Assembly (NCBI GenBank): GCA_903907995.1
Contig: CAIVQH010000038.1
Location: forward strand, 1-47,440
Length of the DNA stretch: 47,440 bases
Direction: 5' to 3'
Source of the DNA: an uncultured Verrucomicrobiota bacterium
GTDB taxonomy: Bacteria > Verrucomicrobiota > Verrucomicrobiia > Limisphaerales > UBA9464
The notes beneath the pieces are model-generated. The model was given only the letters and a program-made list of their open reading frames with translations, was not told the DNA's origin and searched no databases. Made by a program: the position numbers and the translations under genes. Below are positions 19,957 to 43,833 of this stretch, in pieces; position 1 is the stretch's first letter; each line of letters begins with the position of its first letter.

Positions 19957-22900
19957 TCAGGAGAGAACGGCGGCGGGCGGATCCGTTTCAAGCCGGGCGG
20001 GAGGAGCGATGGTTTCGTCACTGTGGCTCCCGAGGCTGAACTCGACAGAATGCTCCTGCCTGTCGTCCACCAAAGGCACGGCATTCCCCGGCAGGCGGTT
20101 GCCATCGAGGAACAGTTGATCTGCCTCGCCGGAACCGGCGGCCAGGCGGGTGATGGCCAGGTGATAGACGGTCTGCCGGTAGCGGTAGTGAATCCGGCAG
20201 GCCGGCCAGCCGGCCGGGAGACGCGGGGTCAGCACGAGTTTGTCGCCTGCCAGATTGACGCCCAGCAGGGTCTCGATGAGCAGCCGGTACATCCAGCCGG
20301 CGGAGCCGGTGTACCAGGTCCAGCCGCCCCGGCCGGAGTGCGGCGCGACGGCATAGACATCCGCCGCCACGACGTAGGGCTCCACCTTGTAAGTGGCGAT
20401 CTGTTCCGGCGTCCCGCCGTGATGCACCGGGTTCAACAGGCTGAAAAGCTCCCACGCACGGTCGTTTTCACCCTGGAGCGCGAAGGCCATGGCGGCCCAG
20501 ATGCCTGCGTGGGTGTACTGGCCGCCATTCTCGCGCACGCCCGGGATGTAGCCCCTGATGTAGCCGGGATTCAGCGCCGACCGGTCAAATGGCGGATCGA
20601 ACAGCTGGATCAGCTTTTCGTTTCGCCGGACGAGGCGCCGGTCAACCGAGTCCATCGCCTGGCGTGAACGTCCCAGCTCGCCCGCGCCGCTGATCACGGA
20701 CCAGCTCTGGGGCAGCGAATCAATCTGGCATTCGGGATTCGTCTGCGAACCCAGCGGTTCACCGTTGTCGAAGTAGGCGCGGCGATACCAGGCGCCGTCC
20801 CAGGCATGCCGCTCGATGTTTTCCTGCAGCTGCCGGGCCTGCGCGACACAGCGGTCGGCGAAGGCGGTGTCTTTCCGCGCGCGCGCGAGTCCGGAGAATT
20901 GCGTGAGCACGTCGTACAGGAAGAAGGCCAGCCAGACACTTTCGCCGCGCCCCTCCCGGCCCACCATGTTCATCCCGTCGTTCCAGTCGCCGCACCCGAT
21001 GAGCGGGAGGCCGTGCTCGCCGAACTTCAGGCCGCGTTCGATGGCTCGCACGCAATGCTGATACAGCGTGGCCGACTCTTCGGAGCGGTTGGGCAGGTCG
21101 TAATACGCCTCCTCTTCCGGCTTTACCGGCCGCGCATCCAGAAAAGGGATCTTTTCATCCAGCACTCCGGTATCCGCCAGACACGACACATAACGGCACG
21201 TCACGTAGGGCAGCCACAGGAAGTCATCGGAGAAATGCGTGCGCACCCCGCGTCCCGATGGCGGATGCCACCAGTGCTGCACGTCTCCTTCGCGGAACTG
21301 GTGCGTCGCGGCGCGGAGCAGATGCTCCCGGGTGAGGGCCGGCTCGCAATGCACGAGCGCCATCGAGTCCTGCAGCTGGTCCCGGAAGCCATACGCGCCG
21401 CCCGACTGATAAAAGCCCGTGCGTCCCCACATCCGGCAGCCGAGGGTCTGGTATAAAAGCCAGCCGTTTGCCAGCACGTTCACGGCCGGATCGGGGGTTT
21501 CCACCGCCACCGCACCGAGCGTCCGCTTCCAATAATCCCAGACTCCCTCGAGCGCGACGCGGTTGGCATCCTCGCGGCGGAAGCGGCGGATGAGGTTCTG
21601 CACCTCCGCCGGGCTGCGGCCGACGCCAAGACGGAAACGGGTTTCGCGCTCCTGACCGTCGGGCAGGTTGAAACTGACCTGCACCGCGCCGCACGGATCG
21701 AGTCCGGCACCGACCTTTCCGGAAAGGCGCACGCGCCTCAGCGCCGCCGGCTGCGCCAGGCTTCCGTTCCGCCCGATGAATTCCCTGCGGTCGCCGGTGA
21801 CGGTGCGCGCGCCATCGTTGACATCGATAAACGCGATGCGCTCGGCGAATTCCGTGTTGTAATGGTTGCGCGCCAGCAGCGCGCCCGTTTTGAGGTCCAC
21901 CTCGGTCTGCACGTGCACCAGGCTTTTCTGCCGCAGGTCGCCCAGCACCCACTCCCAGTAACCCGTGATGGACAGGCGGCGCGAGCGTCCCGAGACGTTG
22001 CGCAGTTTCAGCACCGCAAACTTTACCGGCGCATCCATCGCCACATAGACCCACAGCTCGGAAACGATGCCGTGCTCGGTGTGCTCGAACACGGTGTAGC
22101 CGAAGCCGTGGCGGATGACGTACGGCGTCTTCCCGCGCGCGGGCAGGGGAGTGGGCGACCAGAACTGTCCGGTCTGCTCGTCCCGGATGTAGAACGCCTC
22201 GCCCGTGGTGTCCTGCACCGCGTCGTTGCTCCAGGGTGTCAGGCGGAATTCATGCGAGTTCTCGACCCAGGTGTAAGCCGCACCGCTCTCAGAAATGACC
22301 GTCCCGAAATAGGGATTGGCCAGCACATTGACCCACGGCGCCGGCGTCATCTGCCCGGGCTGAAGCGTGATGACATATTCCCGGCCGTCCGGGGTGAAGC
22401 CGCCAAAGCCGTTCGGGAAGATCAGTTCGCGGTGCGGAAGCGGTGCCGGCTGGTCGTCGGAGGCATTGCGGATGTGCGTCAGGGCGGGTACCATCGGCTC
22501 CAGCACGCTGCGATGCTCCAGCTGCTGCGCCAGCGTCCCCTTCTCGTCGTCCAGCACTATGCGCGCCGCCGCTTGCAGCAGTACGCGGTCGTCGTTGGGA
22601 ATCTGTTCCAGCCGCCGGACAAAGATGCCGCCGGGCTTGTCCAGCATCTGGGCCTCGATGCCGGACGAAATCAGCGCGGTGATCTGGTCATGCAGTGACT
22701 GGCGATAGACCGAGGCATCCTCGTTCAGGATGACGAGATCCACCGTCAGCCCCTTCATGCGCCAGTAGGAGTGCGCCTGGATGAGCTGCCGGACGATCTC
22801 GACCTTGTCCGGATCGCTGATGCGGAGCAGGACCATGGGTGCATCCCCGGAAATGCCGTAGCTCCAGAGGCCGTTTTGCCCGCGCCGGTTGTTCAGCAGC

Positions 22901-25900
22901 ACGGACGGGCTGGCGCGCCGCGCGGGGTCGGCATAAACCAGCGCGCCCGCCAGCTGGCCGTAGAGCTGGGCCTCGGCCTCCGTGGCGTTGATCTGCTGCA
23001 ACGTGACCTGGCTGTGTGTCCACGCCAGGTCGAAGATCCGGTCGGCCATGCGGCAGCTCTGATATTTCTCCACCTGCGCCAGGGCGGCCTCCCGGCTCTC
23101 CGTCACGCCCAGGACCAGATCAATGATGACGGTTTCGTGCGGTCGCAAAGTGACCGTGCGCCGCAGCGAAATGATCGGGTCGAGCACGGACCCGACGGTA
23201 TTGGACAGCGGTGAAACCGTACACATGGCCGCCGGGCTGGCCGGCGTTCCGCCCCGTCCGACAAAGCGGTCACGGTCGGTCTCGCAGGAGATTTCACCCA
23301 TCTTTTCGGTTTCACCCACCAGCAGATGCATGAGCCACGGGGGCTTTTCGTCAATGGAGCGGGCCCGTCGGGTGCAGAGAATGCCGGAGGACTTCGGGAC
23401 GAATTCCGTCTGCACAAACAGATTGCTGAACGCGGGATGCGCGGCATCCGCGTCCGGTTTCGCGAGCACCACTTCGGCGTAGCTGGTCAGTTCGATCTCC
23501 CGCGTCAGGGGCGAGCGGTTGGTGAGCGTGAGGCGGCGCAGCTCCACATCATCCTCCGGCGACACGCTGATCTCGGTGTGGATCTCCAGTCCGTCATGCC
23601 GCTGACGGAACTCCGCCCGCGACTGCGTAAAAATCGCCTCGTACCGCTTCGTCGCCCGCAGGGTGGGCTGATATGCTGCGGACCAGAATTCTCCCGTCGC
23701 CACGTCGCGCAGATAGACAAACGACCCCCAACAGTCGCGCGTGGCGTCCTCACGCCAGCGGGTGATGGCCAGATCCCGCCACCGGCTGTAGCCGCCGCCC
23801 GCGCTGCTGATGGCGACGTGATAACGCCCGTTGGAAAGCAGGTGCACTTCCGGCATTGGCGGCGTGGGATTGGTGAAGATCCGCATGACGGCTTCCGCGC
23901 CGCCGGCGATCGGCCGCGTGGCCTCCAGTTGCAGATCGGCGGAGAGCACGCTCGCGGCGGTCTTCGGCACCCGTTCCTGCAACAGCAGGTCCGCCGCCTT
24001 GAGCAGCGGGCACGCCATGAACCGCCGCTGCATGGGCCAGTCGCGCAGCACGTTGGCCAGCGCGAGGAGGCTCATCCCCTGATGATGCGCCATGAAGGAC
24101 CGGATGGTGACGCTCGTCTCGCCCGGCGGCAGGCGCGCCGCGGTGTAATCCACCGCCTCATAGAAACCGTAGGCACCCTCGCGCCCATCGTCCCTCAACC
24201 GCCGCAGATTGTCGCACGCCTCGCGCGGGGCCACCATCAGCGCCATGACGGTGGCGTAGGGGGCGATCACCAGGTCGTCGGCCAGGCCGCGTTTCAGACC
24301 GAGGCCCGGCACGCCGAACGCCCGGTACTGGTAGGTGAGCTGCACATCGGTCCGGTTGTAGCCCGATTCGGAAATGCCCCACGGCACGCCGCGCAGCTTT
24401 CCATACTCGATCTGCTGGCGCACCGCCGCCCGGCAGGTGTGGTCGAGCAGGGCCCCGTCATAGTTGGGCATGACCAGCAGCGGCATGAGGTACTCGAACA
24501 TCGAGCCGCTCCACGAGACGAGGATAGGCTCCCCGTGCGGGGCGACGAGCAGCCGGCCGAGCGAAAACCAGTGATCCTGCGGCACCTGCCCCAGGGCGAT
24601 GATGAGGTAGCTGCACAGGCGCGCCTCCGAGGCCAGCAGGTCATAGAAGCCGCTGTCGAAGCGGCGCTCCGTGACGTTGAAACCGGTGGCTAACAGCTTC
24701 CGTTCCGGGGCGAACAGAAAGGCGAAATCCGCCGTGGCCAGTTCATCAGCCTGGCGGGCGAGGTCTTCCAGGGCGAGGAGACGCTCGCGGGCCCGGGTGC
24801 CAGCCTCCCGCACGCAACGCGTGAGTTCGGTGTGATCCTCCCCGCCGCTGGTGAGCGGGCCGGATGACGGCTCCAGCGCCGCCAGTTCACGCAAGGTGGG
24901 TGCCCGGTCGAGGCCGGCGAGTTGCTCCTCAGGGGCTGAAGCGGAATGCGTTTCCGCCGGCGTGACCGCGGATGGCCCGCCGGGAGCGGGGACCGCCAGC
25001 GCCAGCCACGGTGCCAGGAAGCGTAGCTCCGCCAGCTGCTCCTCACAGTTTCGCCGGAGCGTTTGGCTCCAGGCTTTCGCCACGTCGTTCCGGTCCGCCG
25101 ACGCGGCGACGATCTGGCCGGCCAGGTCGGTTGCGCGCACGAGGAGGGCTTGGGCGGCGCGCAAAGTTGCGGGCGCCTGGGCCAGTTCCACGTCGAGCTC
25201 CGACAGGGCCACGTCCTCGGCCGCCATCGGCTTCAGGATGGCCACCGTGTCGCGCAGTCCCGCAAAAACCTGGGGCGTGAAGATTTTTTCGCCGGCAAGT
25301 TCCCGCAGCCCCGCTCCCAGCGTCAGCAGATGTCCGGCAAGGTTCCCGCTGTCCACGCTGGAAACATAGAGCGGCAGCAGCGGCCGGAGCGTGCGCGTCT
25401 CATACCAGTTGTAGAAATGGCCGCGATGCCGCTCGAGTTTCTGCATCGTGTCGAAGGCGTCCCCGGTGCGGCGGATCACGCCGCCGACCGGCAGATGGCC
25501 GAAGTCATAGGCGGCCAGGTTGGCGAGCAGTGCCAGGCCCATGTTCGTGGGCGAGGTGCGCGCGGCGATCACCGGGGATGGGGTCTCCTGGAAATTGTCC
25601 GGCGGCAGCCAGTTTTCCGCCGCGGTCACGAAGGTCTCAAAAAAGTGCCAGGTCTTCCGGGCGGTGCCCCGGAGAAAGGCCAGCTCCGCATCGGTCAGCC
25701 CCGGCGCAAGCGAATCGAGGGGTTGGCTGATCCACCAGGCGATCAGCGGGGCGGCCAGCCAGAGCGCAAGGAGCGGCAGGGCCGCAAGCAACTGCGACGA
25801 CTCCAGGCTGACGAGGGAAATTCCCGCCGCGAGCGCCACGGCGGGCGCGCTCCACATGGTCACGAAAAAGCCGGCCAGGCCGGCGCGGGTGTTCCGTTCG

Positions 25901-28707
25901 GAATCGCCCGAGGTCTGCCATTCGAGGAGCCGCTGGCGCGTCACCAGCAGGCGCACCAAGGTCCGGCCTATGGCATCCAGACTGACAAAGGCGTCGTAAG
26001 GTATGAAGGCCAACGTGAGCAGGACCTGTCCCAGCTGCCGGCCGGCTCCGCCCGCCACAATCCGCAGGTGCATCGCCCACGGCAGGTCGGCCGATTTGCG
26101 CAACCCGCTGACCAGGGCCGCCAGCAGGCCAGGCAGGGTGATGATCCCCAGAACCAGCGGCGTTCCCCACCCGCCCGGTTCCGGCAGGAGCAGCCAGTCA
26201 CCCACCAGGAGGAGCAGCAGCGCGACCGGCACGAGGCTGCGGCGGAGGTTGTCGAAGATTTTCCACCGCGACAAGCCGGAGAGCGGGTTGTCGACAGGGC
26301 GGGCATCCGAGCCGGGCACGCGCGGCAGCAGCCATTGCGTGATCTGCCAGTCGCCCCGGATCCAGCGGTGCCGCCGGTCGATGTCCACGTTGTAGCGCGA
26401 GGGATGCTCCTCGTACAGTTCCACGTCGCTCACCAGCGCGGAACGGGCGTGACACGCCTCCAGCAGGTCGTGGCTGAGCACGGTGTTTTCCGGAAAGCGT
26501 CCCCGCATCGCCCGTTCGAAGGCGTCCACATCGTAGATCCCCTTGCCGATGAACGAACCCTCCTGAAACACGTCCTGATACACGTCGGACACCTCGCGCG
26601 TGTAAGGGTCGATCCCCGCGTCGCCGGCGAACAGCCGGACAAACCAGGAGCGCCGCGACCCCGGCAGGCTCACCCCGACGCGCGGCTGCAGAATGCCATA
26701 GCCTTCGGCGACAATCCCGCGCGCCTCATCGAACACGGGCCGGTTCAGCGGATGCGCCAGCGTGCCGACCAGCTGGCGCGCCGCCTCGCGCGGCAGCTGG
26801 GTGTCGGTGTCGAGCGTGATGACATATTTGATGTCGGGCAGGATGGCGGTGTCCCCGACGATCTCCGAAAATCGTCCCAGCGCGCCGCCGCGCAGCCGGG
26901 CGTTGAACTCCGCCAGCTTCCCGCGCTTGCGCTCGTAGCCCATCCACCGGCCTTCGCTGGCAATCCAGCGGCGGGGCCGGTGAAACAGGAAAAACCGGTT
27001 GTTGCCGGTGCCGCAATATTTCCGGTTCATCGCCTCCACCCCGGCCCGCGCCCGCCCCAGCAGGTCTCCGTCTTCCGGCATGAACTCCGTCGGCGCGTCG
27101 CGAAAATCGGTCAGCAGGGCGAAATGAAGGCGCTCGTCCCGGTTGGCCAGATGGTGGATCTCCAGGGTCTCGATCAGCCGGTCCACCCCCTCCGGGCTGT
27201 TGAGCATGGTGGGAACGGCCACCATCGTCCGGCAGTCGGGCGGGATGCCGGCGGAAAAATCCATCCGCGGGAGCGGGCGGGGCTTCAGCAGCAGCGTGCA
27301 AAGCCAGTTCATCAGCGCCACGGCCAGCTGGCTGGCGCAAACGAGAAACACCAGGCCGAAGCCGATGAGCTGCCCTTCCGGCACTTCGATCGCCTGGAGC
27401 TTCTGCATGAAGCCGAACGTGGTCAGGGCCGTGAACAGGCAGATTCCTCCCGCATAAAACGTCAGCGGGAAGCGGTGAACGCAGCGTTCGAGGAGGTCCC
27501 GCCAGGGCCAGCTAACCCGGGCCAGCCGTCCTAGCTGGGGCCGGCCCTTGTCAATCAGGTAGTAACCGACATGGGCGGTCCGGTCGGTGGGCCCTTTTTG
27601 GCGGGCGCTCTCGGTGGCCAGTTGGACGGCCTGCCGGGCGACCTCGGCTTCGGTGAGCCGGCCGTGCCGGGCCATGAATTCGACCGCGTGGCGATAGCGG
27701 TCGCGCGTCGAAAAATCCATCTGCGCGTAAACCGCGGCGGGGTCGGTCCGCAGCGTCTCCTCGACCCGGCTCAGGCCCTCGACGAAGTCCTTCCAGTCCC
27801 GGGCGCTCAGGAAGCGCAGGCTGGAGATGCTGTGACTCACGGAAACCTGGTCGGCCGCCTGGCTCTGGCTCTCCAGCTGGACGAGCTGCTCGATGGAGTG
27901 CCCGTGTACCACCAGCCGTTGTTCCAGCCAACCACGCGCCAGGTGCAGCACCGGACTTTGCCGCGACAGCCGCTGGCAGAATTCCGCCACGAAGGAGCTG
28001 GAAACGGGCAGGTCGGACTTGGCCATGTCCGCCACCACGATGACCAGGTGCGACGGATCCCTCTCGGCCATGGCCTGCAGACGGTCCACCCAGAGATCCG
28101 CCAGATTGCGGTCCTCCCGGGCGATGATCAGCCGGGTGGTGATCCGCTGGAGATTCTCGATCAGGCCCAGCCTCAGCATGATGGGGATCGCCCACAGTTC
28201 GCCGAGCTTGAGCGAAACGACCGTCTGGTAGGCTTCGATGAAGGCCCGGAGCGGTCCGGCATCGATCTGCGCATCCACATGCGCAATCAGATCGAGGACG
28301 ATGTCGTAAACGCGCGGCAGCCCCGCCGAGGAACCGTTCAGGAGGCGCGGCAATTCGCGGCTGTAGCCATGCGGCAGATGTCGCCGGGCAAGCTGGATCT
28401 GCTCCTCGATCAGGTAAAAATTGTCCAGCAGCCACTCGGCGGCGGGGGTGATGCGCCGGAGCGGGTCCACCGCCAGGGTCTTTCGGTTGAAACCCCTGAG
28501 GATGCGCTCGTTCTCGTCGAGCCGGGCCAGCAGGCTGTTCGAACCGCGCCGGATGACGACCTGATGCGTGGCCGCCAGCGATTTGGCGTGGCGCGCCAGT
28601 TGTTCGACACTGAACAGCTCGGCCCGCAAAGGAGGCTCGTTCGCGTCAAGGTGCGAACCCGCCTGTCTGGCCATCCAGTTCCGAAAACGTCCCGGCGGCA
28701 TGGCCAT
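19957..28707 (-). CDS. Cyclic beta-1,2-glucan synthase (GT84-GH94, NdvB/Cgs type)
   Basis: 2,916 residues, close to Brucella Cgs and rhizobial NdvB. Order of parts: an N-terminal helical region; membrane segments near residues 400-470; a GT84 glycosyltransferase with DTDTQLP (about 631) and RRHRWIRGDWQ (about 779); further membrane helices (about 810-1000); a glycoamylase-type domain with MAHHQGMSLLAL (about 1540); a GH94 beta-sandwich; and the GH94 alpha/alpha barrel with acid GCGDWNDGMN (about 2572). The enzyme builds a protein-linked linear beta-1,2-glucan from UDP-glucose, trims it by phosphorolysis and cyclises it. The products act in the periplasm in osmotic adaptation and host interaction. 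It is a single-gene unit; ATG 28707 or Met3 may be used. Confidence 0.92.
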   Translation of the reverse strand: MAMPPGRFRNWMARQAGSHLDANEPPLRAELFSVEQLARHAKSLAATHQVVIRRGSNSLLARLDENERILRGFNRKTLAVDPLRRITPAAEWLLDNFYLIEEQIQLARRHLPHGYSRELPRLLNGSSAGLPRVYDIVLDLIAHVDAQIDAGPLRAFIEAYQTVVSLKLGELWAIPIMLRLGLIENLQRITTRLIIAREDRNLADLWVDRLQAMAERDPSHLVIVVADMAKSDLPVSSSFVAEFCQRLSRQSPVLHLARGWLEQRLVVHGHSIEQLVQLESQSQAADQVSVSHSISSLRFLSARDWKDFVEGLSRVEETLRTDPAAVYAQMDFSTRDRYRHAVEFMARHGRLTEAEVARQAVQLATESARQKGPTDRTAHVGYYLIDKGRPQLGRLARVSWPWRDLLERCVHRFPLTFYAGGICLFTALTTFGFMQKLQAIEVPEGQLIGFGLVFLVCASQLAVALMNWLCTLLLKPRPLPRMDFSAGIPPDCRTMVAVPTMLNSPEGVDRLIETLEIHHLANRDERLHFALLTDFRDAPTEFMPEDGDLLGRARAGVEAMNRKYCGTGNNRFFLFHRPRRWIASEGRWMGYERKRGKLAEFNARLRGGALGRFSEIVGDTAILPDIKYVITLDTDTQLPREAARQLVGTLAHPLNRPVFDEARGIVAEGYGILQPRVGVSLPGSRRSWFVRLFAGDAGIDPYTREVSDVYQDVFQEGSFIGKGIYDVDAFERAMRGRFPENTVLSHDLLEACHARSALVSDVELYEEHPSRYNVDIDRRHRWIRGDWQITQWLLPRVPGSDARPVDNPLSGLSRWKIFDNLRRSLVPVALLLLLVGDWLLLPEPGGWGTPLVLGIITLPGLLAALVSGLRKSADLPWAMHLRIVAGGAGRQLGQVLLTLAFIPYDAFVSLDAIGRTLVRLLVTRQRLLEWQTSGDSERNTRAGLAGFFVTMWSAPAVALAAGISLVSLESSQLLAALPLLALWLAAPLIAWWISQPLDSLAPGLTDAELAFLRGTARKTWHFFETFVTAAENWLPPDNFQETPSPVIAARTSPTNMGLALLANLAAYDFGHLPVGGVIRRTGDAFDTMQKLERHRGHFYNWYETRTLRPLLPLYVSSVDSGNLAGHLLTLGAGLRELAGEKIFTPQVFAGLRDTVAILKPMAAEDVALSELDVELAQAPATLRAAQALLVRATDLAGQIVAASADRNDVAKAWSQTLRRNCEEQLAELRFLAPWLALAVPAPGGPSAVTPAETHSASAPEEQLAGLDRAPTLRELAALEPSSGPLTSGGEDHTELTRCVREAGTRARERLLALEDLARQADELATADFAFLFAPERKLLATGFNVTERRFDSGFYDLLASEARLCSYLIIALGQVPQDHWFSLGRLLVAPHGEPILVSWSGSMFEYLMPLLVMPNYDGALLDHTCRAAVRQQIEYGKLRGVPWGISESGYNRTDVQLTYQYRAFGVPGLGLKRGLADDLVIAPYATVMALMVAPREACDNLRRLRDDGREGAYGFYEAVDYTAARLPPGETSVTIRSFMAHHQGMSLLALANVLRDWPMQRRFMACPLLKAADLLLQERVPKTAASVLSADLQLEATRPIAGGAEAVMRIFTNPTPPMPEVHLLSNGRYHVAISSAGGGYSRWRDLAITRWREDATRDCWGSFVYLRDVATGEFWSAAYQPTLRATKRYEAIFTQSRAEFRQRHDGLEIHTEISVSPEDDVELRRLTLTNRSPLTREIELTSYAEVVLAKPDADAAHPAFSNLFVQTEFVPKSSGILCTRRARSIDEKPPWLMHLLVGETEKMGEISCETDRDRFVGRGGTPASPAAMCTVSPLSNTVGSVLDPIISLRRTVTLRPHETVIIDLVLGVTESREAALAQVEKYQSCRMADRIFDLAWTHSQVTLQQINATEAEAQLYGQLAGALVYADPARRASPSVLLNNRRGQNGLWSYGISGDAPMVLLRISDPDKVEIVRQLIQAHSYWRMKGLTVDLVILNEDASVYRQSLHDQITALISSGIEAQMLDKPGGIFVRRLEQIPNDDRVLLQAAARIVLDDEKGTLAQQLEHRSVLEPMVPALTHIRNASDDQPAPLPHRELIFPNGFGGFTPDGREYVITLQPGQMTPAPWVNVLANPYFGTVISESGAAYTWVENSHEFRLTPWSNDAVQDTTGEAFYIRDEQTGQFWSPTPLPARGKTPYVIRHGFGYTVFEHTEHGIVSELWVYVAMDAPVKFAVLKLRNVSGRSRRLSITGYWEWVLGDLRQKSLVHVQTEVDLKTGALLARNHYNTEFAERIAFIDVNDGARTVTGDRREFIGRNGSLAQPAALRRVRLSGKVGAGLDPCGAVQVSFNLPDGQERETRFRLGVGRSPAEVQNLIRRFRREDANRVALEGVWDYWKRTLGAVAVETPDPAVNVLANGWLLYQTLGCRMWGRTGFYQSGGAYGFRDQLQDSMALVHCEPALTREHLLRAATHQFREGDVQHWWHPPSGRGVRTHFSDDFLWLPYVTCRYVSCLADTGVLDEKIPFLDARPVKPEEEAYYDLPNRSEESATLYQHCVRAIERGLKFGEHGLPLIGCGDWNDGMNMVGREGRGESVWLAFFLYDVLTQFSGLARARKDTAFADRCVAQARQLQENIERHAWDGAWYRRAYFDNGEPLGSQTNPECQIDSLPQSWSVISGAGELGRSRQAMDSVDRRLVRRNEKLIQLFDPPFDRSALNPGYIRGYIPGVRENGGQYTHAGIWAAMAFALQGENDRAWELFSLLNPVHHGGTPEQIATYKVEPYVVAADVYAVAPHSGRGGWTWYTGSAGWMYRLLIETLLGVNLAGDKLVLTPRLPAGWPACRIHYRYRQTVYHLAITRLAAGSGEADQLFLDGNRLPGNAVPLVDDRQEHSVEFSLGSHSDETIAPPARLETDPPAAVLS

Positions 28708-29079
28708 GGCTGGTTAGGGCTGCGCGCGGCCAGCCACCCACCCATGGGTGGAAATCCGCCGGTCGGGCCGCCGGCGATCCCCGCCCCTGGCCGGACCCCG
28801 CCCTTGCGTCAATTTCGGCGCGCCGGCCTGGACAGGAGTGTGCATGTCTGTTTTTGAAGTTGTGGCCGGGCGGGTTTGTGGCCCGGAGAACTTGCAGGTC
28901 AGCCGGGCGTCCCAACGTCATTTTTGGAAAAACGTCCCGCCGCTGAAGTCGCGACCATGGAAGAAGCACCCCTGCCCTTCTATGGGGTGTTTTCCCCGAA
29001 CCGCCGGCCCCTCGGGCGTTGCGCGGGCATTTCGGCGGTGCTGACCGACTACCGACAGGTCTTCCCTGACCGTCGCCTC
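28708..29079. other. Gene-free stretch upstream of the glucan synthase
   Basis: About 370 bp. It should hold the glucan synthase promoter (minus strand). From 28957 a plus-strand frame (MEEAPLPFYGVF...) runs into the cytidine deaminase remnant, but its sequence before 29080 has no recognisable homology. Confidence 0.35.
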
Positions 29080-29244
29080 GCCTGCATCGACGCCGATGCC
29101 TCGCTCGGGCTCAACGGCCGGATGCCCGGCGGCGCCTGCCGCCAATGGCTGCTCGAACTCGCGCCTGACGCGGAGCTGATCGTCGCCGGCGAGACGCGTG
29201 TCTTCACCGTGCGCGAGCTGCTGCCGCACGGGTTTGAGCTCTGA
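29080..29244 (+). pseudogene. Truncated cytidine deaminase remnant (last 55 codons)
   Basis: Aligns without gaps to codons 81-134 plus stop of the intact cdd at 17572-17736. Of 55 codons 12 differ; 11 changes are synonymous and one is TGC to GGC, turning the zinc ligand Cys97 of PCGAC into Gly. The N-terminal 80 residues, including CAE, are absent, so it cannot be an active deaminase. The synonymous bias says the source was a functional, selected cdd until recently, rather than an old copy decaying in place. Confidence 0.9.
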
Positions 29245-29323
29245 GGCGCGCAAAATCAACTCCTGCGGGCGCGCCACGGAAGAATATCCTGCTGCGTCGG
29301 TTTATGATCCTGAAGGGATTTTT

Positions 29324-29507
29324 ATCATTCAGCCCGGCGTTGCGTGACGAAGTCGCGCTACGCTGGGTATGGGCCAGGACGTGCAATCTACCCTGTAGGG
29401 GTAGAATCACTTTCCGACGGGAAACGATACAACCCATGTTGGGGTTGAGAATCACCGGGACAGACAACCCGGGGTAGTCGCTCCGCGCCAACCCTGGGCT
29501 GAATGAT
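29324..29507. repeat. Inverted-repeat element with 12-bp perfect ends
   Basis: ATCATTCAGCCC at 29324-29335 is repeated in reverse complement (GGGCTGAATGAT) at 29496-29507, bounding 184 bp that contains smaller palindromes such as CTACCCTGTAGGGGTAG near 29389. It fills most of the gene-free stretch 29245-29622. Confidence 0.6.
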
Positions 29508-29622
29508 GGAATCCCCTTGGGATTCTCAAAAGCCTGCAGAAGGTTCGCACAAATGGTGCCTGGTGTAGGGCCCATCGCATCCGGGCAAAAATGCCTCGCA
29601 CTGCCGCCGTACGCCAAAAAGA

Positions 29623-29648
29623 AAACGGGACCCAACAGGGTCCCGTTT
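29623..29648 (-). terminator. Rho-independent terminator of the DUF1080 gene (bidirectional form)
   Basis: An 11-bp perfect stem, AAACGGGACCC (29623-29633) and GGGTCCCGTTT (29638-29648), with an AACA loop. On the minus strand the stem is followed by TTCTTTTT, placed about 40 bp after the DUF1080 stop. T-rich sequence on the other side would also allow plus-strand termination. Confidence 0.85.
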
Positions 29649-29687
29649 GTTTTAAAAAAACGTGGGAGCTTCTTCGCTCCGGTGGCT

Positions 29688-30458
29688 TCAGGGCAGCTTC
29701 TTGAGCATCATGTCCTTGAACTGGACCTGCATGGGCGGGCCGGCGTGGACCTGCAGCGCCAGGATGCCGGTCTTGGCCGCCTTGGCGGACTGCTCGTCCA
29801 CGACCTCGATGGTCATGCGGCCGTTGATGAAGTGCATCAGGTGGTTGCCGTCGGCAATGATGAGGTAGTCGTTCCACTCGCCCGCATGGATGTTGGCCTG
29901 CAGCTCCGCCGAGGGGGCGAGGTCGCCCATCTTGTAGATCTTGGTCGCACCGTTCTCCTCGGTGATGCGGGTGCGGGTGCCGCGCTCGGCGAGGATGCCG
30001 CGACCGCGCTCCTCATAGAGGATGCCGCTGTAGGTCGTGCCCGCCTCGAAGTCGGCCTGGTAGCCGCCCACCACGAAGGCGGCGGGGTCCACGATCTTGC
30101 TGCGGTATTGCACGCCGGAATTGGCGAAACCGACGTTGTTGAGCGGCAGGATCTTGTATTTGAAGCGCAGCTCGAAGTTGTCCACGGTGCCGTTGGTCCA
30201 CACGAGGAAGGTGTTCTGCTTGAGCGGATTCCCCTGCTCGGTATAGCCGGTGATCGCGCCCTCCTTCACCGTCCAGTGGTCGCTCAGGCCGGCCCAGCCG
30301 GCGAGCGTCTTGCCGTCGAAGAGGCTGACCGAGGCGGCCGCCTTGGCGGTCTTGGCCGGCATCGGGCAGCTGCCGGAGCAGCAGCTCTGGCAGCCGGTCT
30401 GGAGGACCGCCGCCGCGCCGAGGGCCAGGGTGGTCAGGAACAGGGAGACTTTGTTCAT
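29688..30458 (-). CDS. DUF1080 (3-keto-disaccharide hydrolase-like) secreted protein
   Basis: 256 residues. The N-terminus is a signal sequence ending in LQTGCQSCC, which may be a non-canonical lipoprotein site. The mature part is a concanavalin-like DUF1080 domain: SLFDGKTLAGW at the start, GYQADFEAG, GEWNDYLIIADGNHLMHFINGRM and GILALQVHAGPPMQVQFKDMML at the end. Some members hydrolyse 3-keto-glycosides. It lies 33 bp downstream of a sugar epimerase gene on the same strand, consistent with a keto-sugar degradation unit. It ends at a strong hairpin terminator. Confidence 0.88.
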   Translation of the reverse strand: MNKVSLFLTTLALGAAAVLQTGCQSCCSGSCPMPAKTAKAAASVSLFDGKTLAGWAGLSDHWTVKEGAITGYTEQGNPLKQNTFLVWTNGTVDNFELRFKYKILPLNNVGFANSGVQYRSKIVDPAAFVVGGYQADFEAGTTYSGILYEERGRGILAERGTRTRITEENGATKIYKMGDLAPSAELQANIHAGEWNDYLIIADGNHLMHFINGRMTIEVVDEQSAKAAKTGILALQVHAGPPMQVQFKDMMLKKLP

Positions 30459-30491
30459 GTTATATTATATAAAGTGATATGCTTGATTATA
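30459..30491 (-). promoter_or_regulatory. AT-rich spacer, possible internal promoter
   Basis: The 33-bp gap between the epimerase and DUF1080 genes is strikingly AT-rich in GC-rich surroundings. On the minus strand it contains TATAAT eight bases before the DUF1080 ATG, and no Shine-Dalgarno. If used as a -10 box this would give a nearly leaderless message. Confidence 0.35.
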
Positions 30492-31340
30492 TCAGGCGCC
30501 GAAGAGCCTCTTCAGGTTCTTGACGCCCTTGACCGCGATCTCCTCCTGGGTCGGCTCGATGCGGCGCCAGATGGCCGCCGCGCGGGCGATCACCTTCACG
30601 TCGGTGGTGAAGGACTCGATCACGACGTCGCCGTCGTACTTCACGGCCCTGAGCGCGGCCACGATCTCGGCCCAGTTCAGCGAGTCGCCGCCGGGGGTGC
30701 CGCGGTCGGTGCCGCAGGCGTGGAAGTGGGCGAGGAGCTTGCCGGCCTTCTTGATCGACTTGCCCTGGTTCTTCTCCTCGATGTTCATGTGGAACGTGTC
30801 GAGGTGGAGCTTGAGCGCGGGCGAACCGACATCGGCGATGAGCTTGAGGCCCTGCTCGCAGGTGTTCAGGAAGTCGGTCTCAAAGCGGTTCAGGGGCTCG
30901 ACGCAGATGGTGATGCCCTTTTTCTCGGCGTACTTGGCGATGACCTTCAGGTTCTTCACCACCAGCGCCCATTCCTTCTTCTGCTGGGCGGGCTCGACGG
31001 CATCGGCCTTGCCGACGACGCTGTAAACCGGGCCGATGACCCGGGAATGCCCGAGCACGACGGCCTGGTCGATCAGGGCCTTGATGTAGTCGGAACCGGT
31101 CTTCTGCTCCTCGGGCGTGCCGCGCAGGTCGCGGCCGGGGCCCATGCAGGCGCAGATGCTGCCGATGGCCAGGCCGGCCTTGTCGGCGGCGGCCTTCACC
31201 GCTGCGGGATCAATGTGGCTGGGATCCTCGACGGGAATCTCGACGGACTGGAAACCCCACTTTTTGAACTGGGGGAAGAGTTTCACGCTTTCGGTGGTGA
31301 AAGGCGAAACGAAGAGGAAGGTGTTGATGCCAAATCTCAT
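30492..31340 (-). CDS. Sugar 3-epimerase, tagatose/psicose 3-epimerase-like TIM barrel
   Basis: 282 residues of the AP-endonuclease-2-like TIM-barrel family. All four metal ligands of D-tagatose/D-psicose 3-epimerases are present at matching spacing: Glu148 (CVEPLNRFETDFLN), Asp181 (LHLDTFHMNIEE), His207 (HFHACGTDRG) and Glu242 (VVIESFT). The enzyme should epimerise a ketose at C3 or act on a related keto sugar in the cytoplasm. It is first in a two-gene unit with the DUF1080 gene; substrate cannot be decided from sequence. Confidence 0.85.
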   Translation of the reverse strand: MRFGINTFLFVSPFTTESVKLFPQFKKWGFQSVEIPVEDPSHIDPAAVKAAADKAGLAIGSICACMGPGRDLRGTPEEQKTGSDYIKALIDQAVVLGHSRVIGPVYSVVGKADAVEPAQQKKEWALVVKNLKVIAKYAEKKGITICVEPLNRFETDFLNTCEQGLKLIADVGSPALKLHLDTFHMNIEEKNQGKSIKKAGKLLAHFHACGTDRGTPGGDSLNWAEIVAALRAVKYDGDVVIESFTTDVKVIARAAAIWRRIEPTQEEIAVKGVKNLKRLFGA

Positions 31341-31409
31341 GGTAGAACGTGAGGGGACGCTAAAATCCGGACGCGATAGGGAGAAGTTATTTTTGCGCTG
31401 GCAGCCGGA

Positions 31410-32222
31410 TCACGGCACGTTTTCTGGGCCGAACACAATGACCTGCAACCGCTTCAGGTCAGCCGTGCTGTCGCCGATCTTGGTGACGGTCGGCGTATCG
31501 AGCATCTGATCCGTGTAGAGCGTCTTCCAGTGGTAGGCTTCGGCGTGGCCATCCGCGAAGGAAAACGCTGCCGACTTACCATGTCGGGCGGTGGGGGAAT
31601 TCTGCCAGTCCTTGCTGGGCGGGAATTGCGTGGCAAAAAAGCCATCGTCCACGGTTTCCTTGCTCTCATCCACAAAGGTCAAACAGCCCGAGGGAGAGGG
31701 AGCGTTGATGTCAGTGAATTTGACAAACATGGGATTCTTTTGTTTGGATCCGTCAAAGACATATTCAAAGTTACTATCCCCGGCCATGCGACCGTTCATC
31801 GAGTAGGTCCTGACAATACCCTTGGGTATTTTGTTTTTATACTGCTTGAGATCATTGGGCAGCTCCGTGGCGGCCGGGTCACGGTAGATTGCGACGCTGC
31901 CATTGTAGGGGAAAAGCTTGGCGTTGCGTAACAGAATCTCATTGGTCGCATCAGCCAAGGTCTGCATGTTGCCACCGACCCAAGCATTGGTGTTGTTCAG
32001 CGAATTGGGCACCAACCGGTCGTTGTAATCGCCAAAGTACATGGTCCAAGCGAGGGCCAGCTGCTTCATGTTGCTGACGCAGGTGATCGCCTGGGCCTTC
32101 TGCTTCGACTTGGCGAGCGCGGGCAGGAGCATTCCCGCAAGGATGGCGATGATCGCGATGACGACCAGCAGCTCGATGAGCGTGAAGCCCGCAGAGATTC
32201 GCCGAAGGGTGATTTTTTTCAT
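31410..32222 (-). CDS. Prepilin-like protein (pseudopilin, H-X9-DG type)
   Basis: 270 residues from [12 protein letters not shown]. Type IV prepilin N-terminus with cleavage after Gly12 and processed chain [24 protein letters not shown], with Glu at +5. The C-terminal part has the [14 protein letters not shown] signature typical of the large verrucomicrobial/planctomycete pseudopilin families. These are processed by prepilin peptidase and exported; the role of individual members is unknown. The frame opens at 32249, but MKK gives the normal short leader. Confidence 0.88.
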
Positions 32223-32590
32223 TCTAGGTGCGACTTTTTGTGGGACCACGTCCGTTGTAGCTCGGCAAACGGGCCTTTCCAGCCAAATCTACACATGCGG
32301 AGCACAAACTTCTAGCTAAGATCATCACTCCCAAGGCATTCCAACCGGGGATGAGCCGACACTTTTTGCCTGCACGCGCGCAACGGGGGTCCAGACCATA
32401 AGGTACGAAGGCCAGCGGACCAGCATTCACGGTTTCTTTCACCGTTGCCGCGTTGTTTAGAGCGTTTTCCAAAATGCCATGCTCATTGGGTGAGAGGTCA
32501 GGAGAGCGGTGACCGCGACGATGCCAAGTCGCTCTCCGAAAGAGCGCCCCGTCGCCTGCCATTAGGACGGCACAGTGCCGTTGAAATCTC
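32223..32590. other. Gene-free spacer upstream of the pseudopilin
   Basis: About 370 bp with no credible gene; presumably contains the pseudopilin promoter (minus strand), not recognised. Confidence 0.3.
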
Positions 32591-32595
32591 GCTAA

Positions 32596-32732
32596 CACCC
32601 GGCTTCAGCCGGGTGGGAGGCGGCCATGAAGCGCAACGGTTTCAACCGCCTTTCTGATGGTAGTGGCTCCCGTAAGCCGTTGAAACGGCTGAATCAAAGG
32701 GGCGGATTGGAAACCGGGCTGAAAGCCCCGGT
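32596..32732. repeat. Cluster of three short perfect hairpins
   Basis: CACCCGGCT/AGCCGGGTG (32596-32615), AGCCGTTGAAACGGCT (32675-32690) and ACCGGGCTGAAAGCCCCGGT (32713-32732) follow each other within 137 bp. This is the layout of bacterial REP/BIME-like intergenic repeats. Confidence 0.6.
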
Positions 32733-32948
32733 GCTAGTGAGATCAAGAAATACCGATCATAAATAATTCTAGCCCAAGTGGTTGTGAGACATCAGTAAAT
32801 GAATCTGGAAGAGGGTGTTCCGAAAGGCAGCGGGCAATCTTCCTAAAGCGCCTGATAAATCGCACAAATCAAAGCGGGTTGTTTCCAGCAGGCATTGGCG
32901 ATGCCCTTAGTGCCAAGCCTGCGGCTTTCCCTGTCTCGCGGAGCGAGG

Positions 32949-33120
32949 CGGTGAAAGTAGCCGTGGGGTTTTAACCCACGGAAAGGTCAGGAACACGGCG
33001 CGCTCGTCGCGTAGCGACGGTTGAAACCTACCTTTGCAGGGGGGGCTTTCAGGCGTCGCTACGCGACGCACGACCCGGTGGCCTTGGACCATGGGTTGAA
33101 ACCCATGGCTACTTTCACCG
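32949..33120. repeat. 172-bp nested inverted-repeat element
   Basis: Outer perfect 14-bp inverted ends CGGTGAAAGTAGCC (32949-32962) and GGCTACTTTCACCG (33107-33120). Inside are a second inverted pair around GTCGCGTAGCGAC (near 33007) and GTCGCTACGCGAC (near 33054), and short hairpins of the CCATGGGTTGAAACCCATGG kind at the right arm. No coding potential. Confidence 0.7.
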
Positions 33121-33258
33121 GATCGCGCTGCGACCCGAAATCCCCCGAATCGAGCCCGTTGAAAACGGGGACTTGGTATCTGTGTTCCAACGTCCCGGCT
33201 CAATTCGGCGTAGCTATCTCACCATCAAGCAAATCCAAAAACTTTCGTAACACCCTCT

Positions 33259-33318
33259 GGAAAACAGGAAAACAGGAAACGGCTAAAGACAGATCCCCTT
33301 CCTGCTTTCCTGTTTTCC
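33259..33318. repeat. GGAAAACAGG inverted repeat downstream of mnmG
   Basis: GGAAAACAGGAAAACAGGAA (33259-33278) pairs with TTCCTGCTTTCCTGTTTTCC (33299-33318) with one mismatch. The same family occurs at 38571-38639. Placed just after the mnmG stop (minus strand), it could serve as a transcription terminator. Confidence 0.7.
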
Positions 33319-33336
33319 AAATTAAATCCTTCCCCT

Positions 33337-35271
33337 TCAGCCGGCGCAGCTTCCGCAATCGTCCTCCGCAGGCTCCGCGCGCTGACGCTTGAGCCAGACG
33401 AGCACTAGGCTCAGGTCGGCCGGGGTCACTCCGGAGATGCGGCTGGCCTGTCCGATCGTCTGGGGACGGATCTTTTCCAGTTTTTGCCGCGCTTCCGTGC
33501 GTAGGCTGCCGATGCTGGCGTAATCGAAATCCGCCGGGATGGTGCGCTCTTCCAAGTCGTTGAACTTGTCCAGCTCCCGATTCTGCCGGGCGACGTAGCC
33601 GGCATATTTGATCGTGATTTCGACCTGTTCGGTGACTTGGGGCGACAACTGTAGATCACGGCTGGGCAGGTCTTGGTAGCGAACCTCCGGGCGTCGGAGC
33701 AGCTGGGCCATGGTATCGGTGCCTTCCCTAACCTGTTCCAACCGTATCAGTTCCTGCGCGATGGCCGCCCGTTTGGCCTCGAAGTGGCGGTAGTTTCGTT
33801 CGGGCAGCAGCCCCAGCTCGTAGCCCAACTGGCTCAGCCGCTGATCGGCATTGTCCTGGCGCAAGACGAGCCGGTACTCGGCGCGCGAGGTGAACATCCG
33901 ATAGGGCTCCTGCGTGCCCTTCGTGACAAGGTCATCGATGAGGACACCGATGTAGGCCTGATCGCGGCGCAGCACCACGGGTGCTTTGCCCTGGACGCGA
34001 CGCGCCGCATTGATGCCGGCCATCAGTCCCTGCGCGCCGGCTTCCTCATAGCCCGAGGTCCCATTGATCTGTCCCGCGAGGAACAGGTTCCGGCACCCCT
34101 TGGTCTCCAGGCTGGGCTGGAGCTGAGTCGGATGGCTGAAATCGTATTCGACCGCGTAGGCCGGCCGCATGATCTCCGCCTGCTCGCAGCCCACAATGCT
34201 GCGGACCATCTCGACCTGCACCTCGAAGGGCAGGCAGGTCGAAAAGCCGTTCACGTAGATTTCGTCGGTGGCGATCCCCTCCGGTTCGAGGAAAATCTGG
34301 TGCCGCTCCTTGTCCGCGAAGCGCACAAACTTGTCCTCGATGCTCGGACAATACCGGGGACCGATCCCTTCGATGACGCCGGAGTACATGGGCGACTTGT
34401 GGAGGTTCGCCAGAATCAGCTCCCGCGTGCGGTCGGTCGTGTGCGTGAGGTAGCACGGAAGTTGTCCGCCCGTATGCGCGAGGATCGAACCGGGGGGATA
34501 CTTCGGGGCGGGATCGGTGAGCGCCTTCGTCCGAAATTGTTCCACGTGGAACAATGGGTCGTTCCAGAGATCCTCCTGCCAGTATGTGAACCATGGCACC
34601 GGCTCGTCGCCGGGTTGCAACTCGCATTGGGTAAAGTCGATCGACTGCCGGACCAGCCGGGGCGGGGTACCAGTCTTCAGGCGGCCCAGCTCCAAGCCAA
34701 CCTCTTTCAAGGAAGCGGACAGCCCGGTCGCGGCGGCCTCGCCGGCGCGACCGCCAGATTGCTGGTTGGCCCCGACGTGCATGAGGCCCCGCAGAAAGGT
34801 GCCGGTAGTAATAATGACGGTCTGCGCATGGAACTGGACCTCCAGGCTGGTCTCCACCCCATACACCTCGCCGTCCCGATGCAACAACCGGGTGGTCTGC
34901 CCCTGCTTGCAATCGAGATTGGCCTGGCGCTCGCAGATCCATTTCAGGCGAAACTGATAAGCCTTCTTGTCGCACTGGGCCCGGGGAGCCCAAACAGCCG
35001 GGCCTTTCTTGGTGTTGAGCATCCGGAACTGCAAGCCGGACATATCCGTGGCCTTGCCCATCTCGCCACCCAATGCGTCGATCTCCCGGACCAGATGCCC
35101 CTTGGCCAGCCCGCCGATGGCCGGGTTGCACGACATCTGCCCGATGGTATCGAGATTGATCGTCAGCAGCAGGGTCTGGCACCCCATGCGGGCGGCGGCC
35201 AAGGCGGCCTCAACGCCGGCATGGCCGGCACCGACCACGATGACATCATACCGCTTGGGATAGACAAACAT
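33337..35271 (-). CDS. mnmG: tRNA uridine 5-carboxymethylaminomethyl modification enzyme MnmG (GidA)
   Basis: 644 residues with the FAD-binding DVIVVGAGHAGVEAA start, the CNPAIGGLAKGHLVREIDALGG motif, and the conserved C-terminal helical domain that contacts MnmE. With MnmE it modifies U34 of several tRNAs. Relative to the usual chain there is an insertion of roughly 30 residues around 231-265 (WQEDLWNDPLFHVEQF...). The FHVEQF part is the translation of a parS-like palindrome lying inside the gene. mnmG is often near the replication origin with rsmG and parAB; here the next upstream gene encodes a ParB-N-terminus membrane protein. Confidence 0.95.
   Translation of the reverse strand: MFVYPKRYDVIVVGAGHAGVEAALAAARMGCQTLLLTINLDTIGQMSCNPAIGGLAKGHLVREIDALGGEMGKATDMSGLQFRMLNTKKGPAVWAPRAQCDKKAYQFRLKWICERQANLDCKQGQTTRLLHRDGEVYGVETSLEVQFHAQTVIITTGTFLRGLMHVGANQQSGGRAGEAAATGLSASLKEVGLELGRLKTGTPPRLVRQSIDFTQCELQPGDEPVPWFTYWQEDLWNDPLFHVEQFRTKALTDPAPKYPPGSILAHTGGQLPCYLTHTTDRTRELILANLHKSPMYSGVIEGIGPRYCPSIEDKFVRFADKERHQIFLEPEGIATDEIYVNGFSTCLPFEVQVEMVRSIVGCEQAEIMRPAYAVEYDFSHPTQLQPSLETKGCRNLFLAGQINGTSGYEEAGAQGLMAGINAARRVQGKAPVVLRRDQAYIGVLIDDLVTKGTQEPYRMFTSRAEYRLVLRQDNADQRLSQLGYELGLLPERNYRHFEAKRAAIAQELIRLEQVREGTDTMAQLLRRPEVRYQDLPSRDLQLSPQVTEQVEITIKYAGYVARQNRELDKFNDLEERTIPADFDYASIGSLRTEARQKLEKIRPQTIGQASRISGVTPADLSLVLVWLKRQRAEPAEDDCGSCAG
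34536..34555. promoter_or_regulatory. parS-like centromere site inside mnmG
   Basis: A perfect 20-bp palindrome, ATTGTTCCACGTGGAACAAT, containing the parS core TGTTCCACGTGGAACA known from Pseudomonas and many other bacteria. It encodes part of LFHVEQF in MnmG. ParB would nucleate here to load segregation complexes. Confidence 0.85.
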
Positions 35272-35295
35272 GGGAATCAGGTACCCGGAGGAGGC

Positions 35296-35317
35296 AATTG
35301 TTCCACGTGGAACAATT
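35296..35317. promoter_or_regulatory. parS-like centromere site upstream of mnmG
   Basis: A perfect 22-bp palindrome with the core TGTTCCACGTGGAACA, located in the 51-bp gap between mnmG and the ParB-like membrane protein gene, 760 bp from the site inside mnmG. Confidence 0.88.
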
Positions 35318-35322
35318 CGATT

Positions 35323-35685
35323 CTACTTGGTTGGCCTCGGTGGGGTCATCGCCAAAAGAGCGAGGACGCAGCCGATCAGCAGCAACACCACTCCCACGGC
35401 CAATGCCGCGCCCGTGTGCGCCATGGGGGACGCCGTAATCAGCCAAGCGCCAATGGCCAAGAGCAAAACGTCCGCCCCCAGCAGTACGCCTCGGCCGATA
35501 AAGGATTTGTGCTCAACAGTTTGGGTTGAAACAGCCGAAACGGTAGCGGGTTTGACCGGTGATTTCGGGTCAACAGCCTGCCCGTGATCCTTGAAACGCT
35601 CGGGCTCAGACAACGAACGGACCGGTTGCTGGGCAGACTCTGCCAGCAACGCGCCCAAACCCTTGCCCAAACCGGTGGATGCCAC
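35323..35685 (-). CDS. Small membrane protein with ParB-type N-terminal peptide
   Basis: 120 residues from GTG 35685. Residues 4-15 (TGLGKGLGALLA) match the conserved N-terminal ParA-interaction peptide of chromosomal ParB proteins (consensus like RGLGRGLDALI). After a polar linker (16-62) come two membrane helices, about 65-86 (GRGVLLGADVLLLAIGAWLIT) and 92-113 (GAALAVGVVLLLIGCVLALLAM). The ParB CTPase, helix-turn-helix and dimerisation domains are all absent. It lies 51 bp upstream of mnmG on the same strand, with a parS-like site in the gap. GGAGG precedes the GTG closely. A role as a membrane-tethered activator of ParA-like ATPases is inference. Confidence 0.7.
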   Translation of the reverse strand: MASTGLGKGLGALLAESAQQPVRSLSEPERFKDHGQAVDPKSPVKPATVSAVSTQTVEHKSFIGRGVLLGADVLLLAIGAWLITASPMAHTGAALAVGVVLLLIGCVLALLAMTPPRPTK

Positions 35686-36086
35686 GCCTCCAGTTTCGAC
35701 CCAAAGCGGCCCCAGCTCAAAGAAAATCGGTGGCCGGGCAGAAGGAGACAGGAGCGGCCTTGCGGCCGGGAGTCAGGAATCAGTAGATGGAAGCTGGGAG
35801 ATAGGAGTTGGGGAAACAGCGGCCTCGAGCGGCCAACCGCGAGCGGTTGCCGAAGGATGTTTCGGAAGGGAGATAGCTTGGTGGGGCGAGTGTCCCCGCG
35901 AGCCGAGGCGGCCTTGGTCTGAGGCGGCCCGGCTCGCGGGGACGCTGGCCCCACCGGGCACAGGATGGTCGATCCTTCCAGCGGAGTGCGACGAACCCCG
36001 AACCTCCCACCTCCCATCTCCTATCTTCCAGCTCCTGTCTTCTTGCGTCACAGGACGCCGTAGCGTTAATTCCATGCCTGCAATCT
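35686..36086. repeat. Divergent intergenic region with hairpin element
   Basis: 400 bp between two divergent genes. Around 35880-35957 GGTGGGGCGAGTGTCCCCGC is mirrored by CTCGCGGGGACGCTGGCCCC, an imperfect long hairpin of the same family as 42358-42440. It is flanked by purine-rich GGGAGATAGGAG-type DNA (35740-35815) and its pyrimidine complement (36000-36045). Confidence 0.6.
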
Positions 36087-37220
36087 ATGGATGTCACTCG
36101 CACCGCCTTCGGCACCTGGAATGGTGGCCGGTTCATGCATTTCGGTCAGCCGTTGGAAGATGGTCACTGGGTCAAGACGGCCCAATTGGCCTATCAAAGC
36201 GGCATTCGCACCTTCATTACGGCCGACGTTTACGGTAACGGAGCGGCTGATTCCCTGCTGGGAAGCGCTTTGGCCGGTCTGCCACGCGATTCCTACTGCC
36301 TCGTTGGCGCGGTGGGGCACGACTTCTATTCCGGCAAGCGGGACGGTTCGAAAGGCTTTCCGCGCTTCACCAATCCCGACCTGCGCGCGCCGGGCGATTA
36401 CGCCAGCTACCTCCGTATGGCCACGGAGAAGTCCTTGGAACGCTGCGGGGCCAGCAAGTTCGACCTGCTGCTGCTGCACAATCCCGATTCCATCGGCTAC
36501 TCCAGCGACCGCGTTTGGTCGGCCATGCAGAAGCTCGTCGATGCCGGCCTGACCGACCGTCTCGGCGTCGCGCCCGGGCCGGCGAATGGCTTCACACTCG
36601 ACCTGATCCAGTGTTTCGAGCGCTTCGGCGCGCTGATCGACTGGGCGATGATCATCCTGAACCCGCTCGAGCCGTGGCCCGGTTCGCTGGCGCTGCCGGC
36701 GGCGGTGAAGCACGACATCAAGCTCATGACGCGCGTGGTGGATTACGGCGGTCTCTTCCACGACGACGTGAAGCCCGGCCACCAGTTCGGGTATGGCGAT
36801 CATCGCACCTTCCGCCCGGCCGGCTGGGTTGAGGCAGGCAACAGCAAGCTCGACCAGCTCCGGAGCGTAGCCGAGCGCCACGGACTGACCCTGCTCCAGC
36901 TCGCCTGCGCGTGGAATCTCAGCCAACCGGCGGTTCACAGCGTCATCCCCACGCTGATCCAGGAAGTCGGCGACCACGCCAAGCCCATCGAGCAGAAGAT
37001 CGCGGAACTCGCGAACGTGCCCGACGTGAAGCTGACGTCCGAGGAAATCGCCTTCATCGCTCAGGTCGGTGCCAACAAGGGCTGCATGCATCTCAAGGGC
37101 GCCAACGCCGCCCACACCACACCGCCCGTGGCCGACCAGTGGAGCCTCACGCCGGATCTGGAAGAGGTGGGCCGTCGCTGGGGCATCGACCCGGTCGGCG
37201 ACCTGGCCTGCGCTCACTGA
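36087..37220 (+). CDS. Aldo/keto reductase-family protein lacking the usual catalytic Lys
   Basis: 377 residues with the AKR TIM-barrel order: GIRTFITADVYGNG (Asp47, Tyr49), LLLLHNPDS (His) and a C-terminal LQLACAWNLSQPAVHSVIPTL segment that matches the NADPH-binding end of the family. At the position of the catalytic Lys (usually ..KVG) the protein reads LVGAVGHDF, with no Lys. A long tail after residue 310 (NKGCMHLKGANAAHTT...) is unusual. It could be an active but altered oxidoreductase or a non-catalytic relative. Confidence 0.75.
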   Translation: MDVTRTAFGTWNGGRFMHFGQPLEDGHWVKTAQLAYQSGIRTFITADVYGNGAADSLLGSALAGLPRDSYCLVGAVGHDFYSGKRDGSKGFPRFTNPDLRAPGDYASYLRMATEKSLERCGASKFDLLLLHNPDSIGYSSDRVWSAMQKLVDAGLTDRLGVAPGPANGFTLDLIQCFERFGALIDWAMIILNPLEPWPGSLALPAAVKHDIKLMTRVVDYGGLFHDDVKPGHQFGYGDHRTFRPAGWVEAGNSKLDQLRSVAERHGLTLLQLACAWNLSQPAVHSVIPTLIQEVGDHAKPIEQKIAELANVPDVKLTSEEIAFIAQVGANKGCMHLKGANAAHTTPPVADQWSLTPDLEEVGRRWGIDPVGDLACAH

Positions 37221-37305
37221 TGGTTAGGTCCCGAGTCCGGAGTCCCGGGTCCGAGGTCCCGAGTCTTGGCACTCGCAACTCATAGCTCACAACTCGTAAC
37301 TGACC

Positions 37306-37818
37306 GTGTCTGCCGCCGAAATCACGGGCTTCGTGCTCACCCTGCTGGTGATGCTCGTAGGCCTGGTCGGCGCGGTGCTGCCGGGTCTGCCGGGGCCGCC
37401 CCTGATTTTCGTGGCGGCCTTGGGACACCGGCTCTACTTCGGCGAACGCGGCGCGGCCTGGTGGGTCATCATCGTGCTCGGGCTGATCGGCGCGCTGTCG
37501 CTGCTGCTCGATTTTCTGGCGACGACCTACGGCGCGAAACGGCTGGGCGCGACCTGGCGCGGCATGGTCGGCGCGGGCATCGGCGCGATCGTGGGCCTGT
37601 TTATCTTTCCGCCGTGGGGCCTAATATTGGGTCCGCTGCTCTGTGCCGCCCTCGCAGAAATGCTGGGCGGCCGCCCGTGGAAGGAAGCCGGCAAGGCCGG
37701 CATGGGCGCGGCGTTCGGCGTCCTCGCCGGCACCGCCGGGAAAGTCGCCTGCTGCCTCGCGATGATCGGGCTGTTCGTGCTGCAACTGCTCTACCACGTG
37801 CTGCAAACGGGGAATTGA
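37306..37818 (+). CDS. DUF456 membrane protein
   Basis: 170 residues from GTG 37306. Four to five membrane helices with family-typical glycine-rich loops: GAVLPGLPGPPLIFVAALGH, LDFLATTYGAKRLGATWRGMVGAGIGAIVG, GLILGPLLCAALAEMLGG and FGVLAGTAGKVACCLAMIG. DUF456 proteins are inner-membrane proteins of unknown function. The 85 bp before it (37221-37305) is low-complexity DNA made of GTCCCGAGTC- and AACTCGTAACTC-like units. Confidence 0.85.
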   Translation: MSAAEITGFVLTLLVMLVGLVGAVLPGLPGPPLIFVAALGHRLYFGERGAAWWVIIVLGLIGALSLLLDFLATTYGAKRLGATWRGMVGAGIGAIVGLFIFPPWGLILGPLLCAALAEMLGGRPWKEAGKAGMGAAFGVLAGTAGKVACCLAMIGLFVLQLLYHVLQTGN

Positions 37819-43821: not shown

Positions 43822-43833
43822 GAGCGCATGGGA

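Follow-up and report, generated by a model that had tools for sequence, protein, structure and literature searches.

The window analysed here, the whole stretch of 47,440 nucleotides, contains one complete cytidine deaminase gene, cdd (17332-17736, + strand; PF00383), whose 134-aa product scores 129.5 bits against the homotetrameric cytidine deaminase model TIGR01354 (cut-off 113.65). Along the window the order is trx-cdd, P0003, a GH94 gene, a cdd remnant and keto. The thioredoxin-like gene trx (16865-17335, +; Pfam Thioredoxin_7/Thioredoxin_2) lies directly before cdd. P0003 (18012-19601, +) encodes an orphan multi-pass membrane-type protein of 529 aa with a sub-threshold match to LMF1 (E 0.0072); across the 320 order genomes it was found in its own alone, the other 319 giving no match. 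The GH94 gene (19957-28707, -; PF06165, PF17167, PF10091) encodes a protein of 2916 aa, presumably of the cyclic beta-glucan synthase type, the first 400 aa of which have matches in 14 of 50 family genomes, the best (78%) in another genus and that in the nearest relative compared, G004, at 53%. The 3-keto-disaccharide hydrolase-like gene keto (29688-30458, -; PF06439) is, in G004 (C41:34424-35194), the native gene that comes next after cdd.

The remnant includes a 3' piece at 29080-29244 (+), 165 bases that make up 54 sense codons and the stop and correspond to cdd codons 81 to stop. It is identical to the cdd end at 17572-17736 in 153 of the 165 bases, and the similarity stops about 8 bases beyond the stop codon. 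The 12 differences fall in 12 codons and are scattered evenly along the segment; 11 lie at third codon positions and 11 of the codons are synonymous, the single replacement being TGC to GGC, Cys97Gly, so that the count given by the sequence-only reading was reproduced exactly on recomputation. That reading had taken 29080-29244 as the fragment and described it as differing almost only at silent sites, which holds for this piece as a cdd segment but not for the remnant as a whole, since 29035-29066 (+) is also derived from cdd. This 5' piece matches 17431-17462 (codons 34-44) in 26 of 32 bases, a score not reached by any of 2000 shuffled versions of the query, lies in the same frame as the 3' piece, and carries four replacements relative to the intact gene (E38D, D39Y, G40R and R41Q). 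At positions 38 and 41 the G004 cdd likewise carries D and Q, leaving only D39Y and G40R different from both copies, and the density of differences in the two pieces (6/32 against 12/165) is not significantly different (Fisher p 0.085). Approximately codons 45-75 are gone from between them, a net loss of 96 bases from 29035 to 29080 compared with the intact gene.

Cytidine deaminases carry a C/H-A-E motif with the catalytic Glu and a P-C-x-x-C zinc motif, and we take Cys58, Glu60, Cys97 and Cys100 to be the zinc and catalytic residues here. Neither motif is whole in the remnant: Cys58 and Glu60 were lost with the missing stretch and Cys97 is Gly, while Cys100 is kept. When the own genome (G000) was searched with the 165-base segment, two close places were found, the segment itself and the cdd end, with an additional 33-base match (88%) on contig 13. 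A 47-base match (83%) to 29091-29137 occurs on contig 132 of the congener G006, a genome 54% complete and without cdd by protein search. Directly past the remnant, the genome search located a repeat about 220 bases long (29307-29530) that has inverted ends and occurs in multiple copies, with at least 16 further matches of at least 200 bases in the own genome and at least 6 in G004. It resembles a REP-like element or a small, non-autonomous mobile one.

The 3' piece closes a short reading frame, 28957-29244, which runs open without stops. Its ATG at 28957 sits upstream of the GH94 gene in a leader-like stretch (28816-28990) that bears a palindrome (28955-28990); stretch and palindrome recur in G004 (70% match to C10:792-966) and on contig 18 of the own genome, and because the ATG falls in such a recurring stretch, the frame looks like a chance fusion. 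On C10 of G004 it matches the leader region of a surface-protein-like gene unrelated to the GH94 gene, and it resembles the stretch on contig 18 as well; it is possibly a shared regulatory site.

Comparison with relatives places these features in context. Cdd was found in 14 of 50 genomes of the family and in two of the eight genomes examined in the genus (own included), namely G000 and G004; the others are 54-96% complete. The cdd of G000 and that of G004 are 92-94% identical. G004 carries trx, cdd and keto in that order, the last two being 683 bases apart, and colinearity with the window extends on both sides (9119-17736 and 29688-38836 with C41 26784-33741 and 34424-43098). In all six other congeners keto is the immediate neighbour of the gene that stands before trx here; the match ends are about 155-540 bases apart, and neither trx nor cdd lies in between. 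The sequence-only reading had proposed to look for a full cdd at this locus in relatives, and it is thus present in G004 and absent in the six others. Since these six are without trx-cdd and G004 is without the additional DNA, trx-cdd is a gain of the G000/G004 line and the 11.3 kb is specific to G000, in both cases among the genomes compared. Farther along, 38874-45964 runs in the opposite orientation to its G004 counterpart, C41:50155-43197; related repeats lie close to its ends, and the inversion is probably repeat-mediated.

The additional DNA, about 11.3 kb at 17745-29034 (edges approximate, from the colinear blocks), lies relative to G004 between trx-cdd and remnant-keto, so that the complete cdd and the cdd end bracket an insertion. 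The arrangement is that of gene-end displacement: the flanks are conserved in a relative that has no insert, and on the far side of the insert stands a truncated version of the gene at its edge. The two long insert genes (10,341 of about 11,290 bases) gave no match to integrase families, and no plasmid or phage gene was recognised in them. Identical attachment repeats were not found at the edges, nor was any exact repeat bounding the insert, the sole long direct repeat being the cdd pair itself, 93% identical. A site-specific integrative element is accordingly unlikely, given the lack of an integrase match in these two genes and of identical repeats at the edges. The low GC of 18000-18999 (0.589) was not counted as a sign of foreign origin, since 31000-32999 is even lower (0.56-0.57).

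The left side of the locus is also unusual. The trx gene shares 56% identity with its G004 counterpart, with dN of about 0.30-0.33 against at most 0.14 in the 16 other reading frames compared. The G004 trx is 50-57% identical to those of other genera, a range that includes its 56% to G000, whereas the G000 trx reaches 41-45% against the same genes, and the sequence preceding trx gives no alignment between G000 and G004. This hints that the left side may have been exchanged too; the divergent trx would reflect either fast evolution in G000 or such an exchange.

Over the 54 shared codons, dS is 0.316 between remnant and intact cdd (dN 0.008), 0.395 between intact cdd and G004, and 0.391 between remnant and G004. 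Each copy is therefore at about 0.39 from G004; 16 other reading frames in the window span 0.04-0.51 (median about 0.21), a range that includes this value. That list excludes trx, one trx/cdd overlap frame and one match of 36% identity. Of eight neighbour genes compared alongside the cdd copies, six gave a usable frame. Polarised with G004, four codons changed in the remnant only (one of them a replacement), four in the intact gene only and seven in G004 only, and four differ in all three. Free decay should produce mostly replacements, as the sequence-only reading had argued, and random placement of the observed base changes gave 0 or 1 replacement in none of 20,000 trials. If dS 0.316 is split evenly between the two branches, about 19 replacements would be expected from free decay along the entire remnant branch, where one is seen (P of at most one about 9e-8), and decay over 25% of the branch gives P 0.047; the four remnant-only changes taken alone show no significant silent excess (P 0.057). 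Long free decay is thus improbable on these codon counts, and the silent-biased changes fit a copy that remained functional through about the first three quarters, or more, of the time since the two copies diverged. The idea of a diverged source cdd, functional until fairly recently, has held up in this respect. With D39Y and G40R counted, the codon evidence indicates that some decay has begun.

The phylogenetic signal in the 3' ends is divided. For the three ends, AU values were 0.59 for intact+remnant, 0.575 for intact+G004 and 0.09 for remnant+G004 (5000 resamplings, fewer than the program advises), intact+remnant having the best likelihood by 0.08 units. In a 3'-segment tree with 12 relatives the placement of the remnant has a support of 49, and in the full-gene tree it falls outside intact+G004 with a support of 66. 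No donor or closer relative was found in the 320 genomes of the order, with two candidates scored per genome; nearest to the remnant are the intact copy (93%) and G004 (90%), and the best identity in named genomes was 71% among at least 80 loci. The sequence-only reading would have counted against itself a replacement-rich version of the fragment in close relatives, a comparison that could not be made, as the fragment turned up in none of the genomes searched.

The fragment is most likely an evolutionary scar and not a working gene. We prefer a recombination scar to an old tandem duplicate, and put a rough probability of 0.55 on the fragment being the end of a second, fairly recently working cdd allele, left by recombination at the far edge of the insert. 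Incoming DNA would have paired with the resident cdd by homology while its other side was joined imperfectly, leaving a complete cdd at one edge and, beyond the insert, the truncated cdd end of the other parent. Both ends would have evolved as working genes before the event, which would be why they differ mostly at silent sites; after it the remnant would have started to decay, giving C97G, D39Y, G40R and the 96-base loss. We infer this route, and the origin of one of the two ends in another lineage, with support from P0003 being without a match in the other 319 genomes, from the divergent trx, from the colinearity of G004 on both sides without the insert, from keto adjoining the preceding gene in the six other congeners, from the dS values to G004 lying within the local range and from the improbability of long free decay; the missing donor, the missing exact repeat at the insert bounds, the closeness of the AU values and the dS of the remnant to G004, which exceeds the local median, count against it. 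So does the remnant+G004 grouping being the weakest by AU, although it is the one to expect of a remnant that is just the native copy, and a joint arrival of trx and cdd would fit badly with their 56% and about 93% identity to G004. In a further-reaching version, which we consider improbable, a block of trx, cdd, P0003 and the GH94 gene would have replaced the resident trx-cdd by recombination ending inside cdd, the intact cdd being the newcomer and the remnant the last resident piece. An exchange on the trx side would fit this version. We keep this replacement apart from the main reading because the tree supports it least (AU 0.09).

The most serious competitor, less probable than the recombination scar and still of real weight, is an old tandem duplicate, in which cdd doubled in this line, both copies persisted for some time, the second later lost its front half and the 11.3 kb entered separately between the two. 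The narrowly best likelihood of intact+remnant, the equal distance of both copies from G004 and the freedom from any donor speak for it, but it requires two events at one place and leaves the divergent trx unexplained, and a side-by-side pair of complete cdd genes was seen in no genome searched, each of the 14 cdd-bearing family genomes besides G000 giving one match. A draft of 60 contigs might also have joined the DNA of two strains at cdd, and strain mixing could yield two diverged, allele-like copies; such an artefact is quite unlikely, since with both flanks colinear with G004 two false joins would be needed, the 12 differences in 165 bases are evenly spread, and contamination is put at 0.71%. 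The presence of both copies in one genome at 93% identity could suggest a recent copy of the intact cdd, freely decaying or touched by gene conversion, but so few replacements never arose in the random placements and the differences extend along the whole segment, making this scarcely credible; gene conversion from the intact cdd was rejected as the cause of the pattern, the 165 bases holding no conversion-like tract. Equally little is to be said for selection on a functional peptide from the short frame, which the sequence-only reading had offered as an alternative and which the open frame and the few replacements in the 3' piece would accommodate. The stretch with Cys58 and Glu60 is gone and with Cys97 the zinc and catalytic residues are depleted, the two remnant frames had no Pfam match at E 0.001, the 5' piece carries replacements and the start codon lies within an unrelated leader; a scan of 28700-29700 gave no sigma-70-type promoter-like site, although such a scan proves little.

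If the recombination scar is the true explanation, the fragment marks a gene gain and gives it a date: a conserved housekeeping gene would have offered the homologous foothold, with its spare end staying behind as the record, and silent-biased differences in a gene scrap become a useful sign of displacement rather than copying. The basic view of cytidine deaminases is unaffected. Our literature search found no cdd remnants described in Verrucomicrobia, and the remnant is of a known kind of scar, ordinary in kind and informative in detail. When a circle that carries part of a gene integrates by a single crossover, the insert ends up flanked on either side by a partial repeat of the target gene. 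The locus resembles this in having such a flanking repeat, and differs from it in that its two long insert genes include no recognised plasmid or phage gene. Integration of this type is mentioned in PMC3240628, which also treats homology-facilitated illegitimate recombination, where one homologous and one illegitimate join would leave a complete gene and a ragged copy; here the end product, rather than the process, is what can be seen. In merodiploids formed by natural transformation, recombination likewise leaves a region in two copies, but those described in PMC3784515 are tandem duplications of about 100-900 kb. The T6SS clusters of Vibrio cholerae contain displaced 3' gene ends and orphan immunity genes, and orphan Rhs 3' ends are a comparable case (PMC5361080). 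As with those T6SS and Rhs ends, incoming DNA would have anchored on homology and pushed the end of the resident gene downstream, where it stayed behind; in V. cholerae the displaced immunity genes often stay in arrays (PMC5361080), whereas here a single dead end of a salvage enzyme is left.
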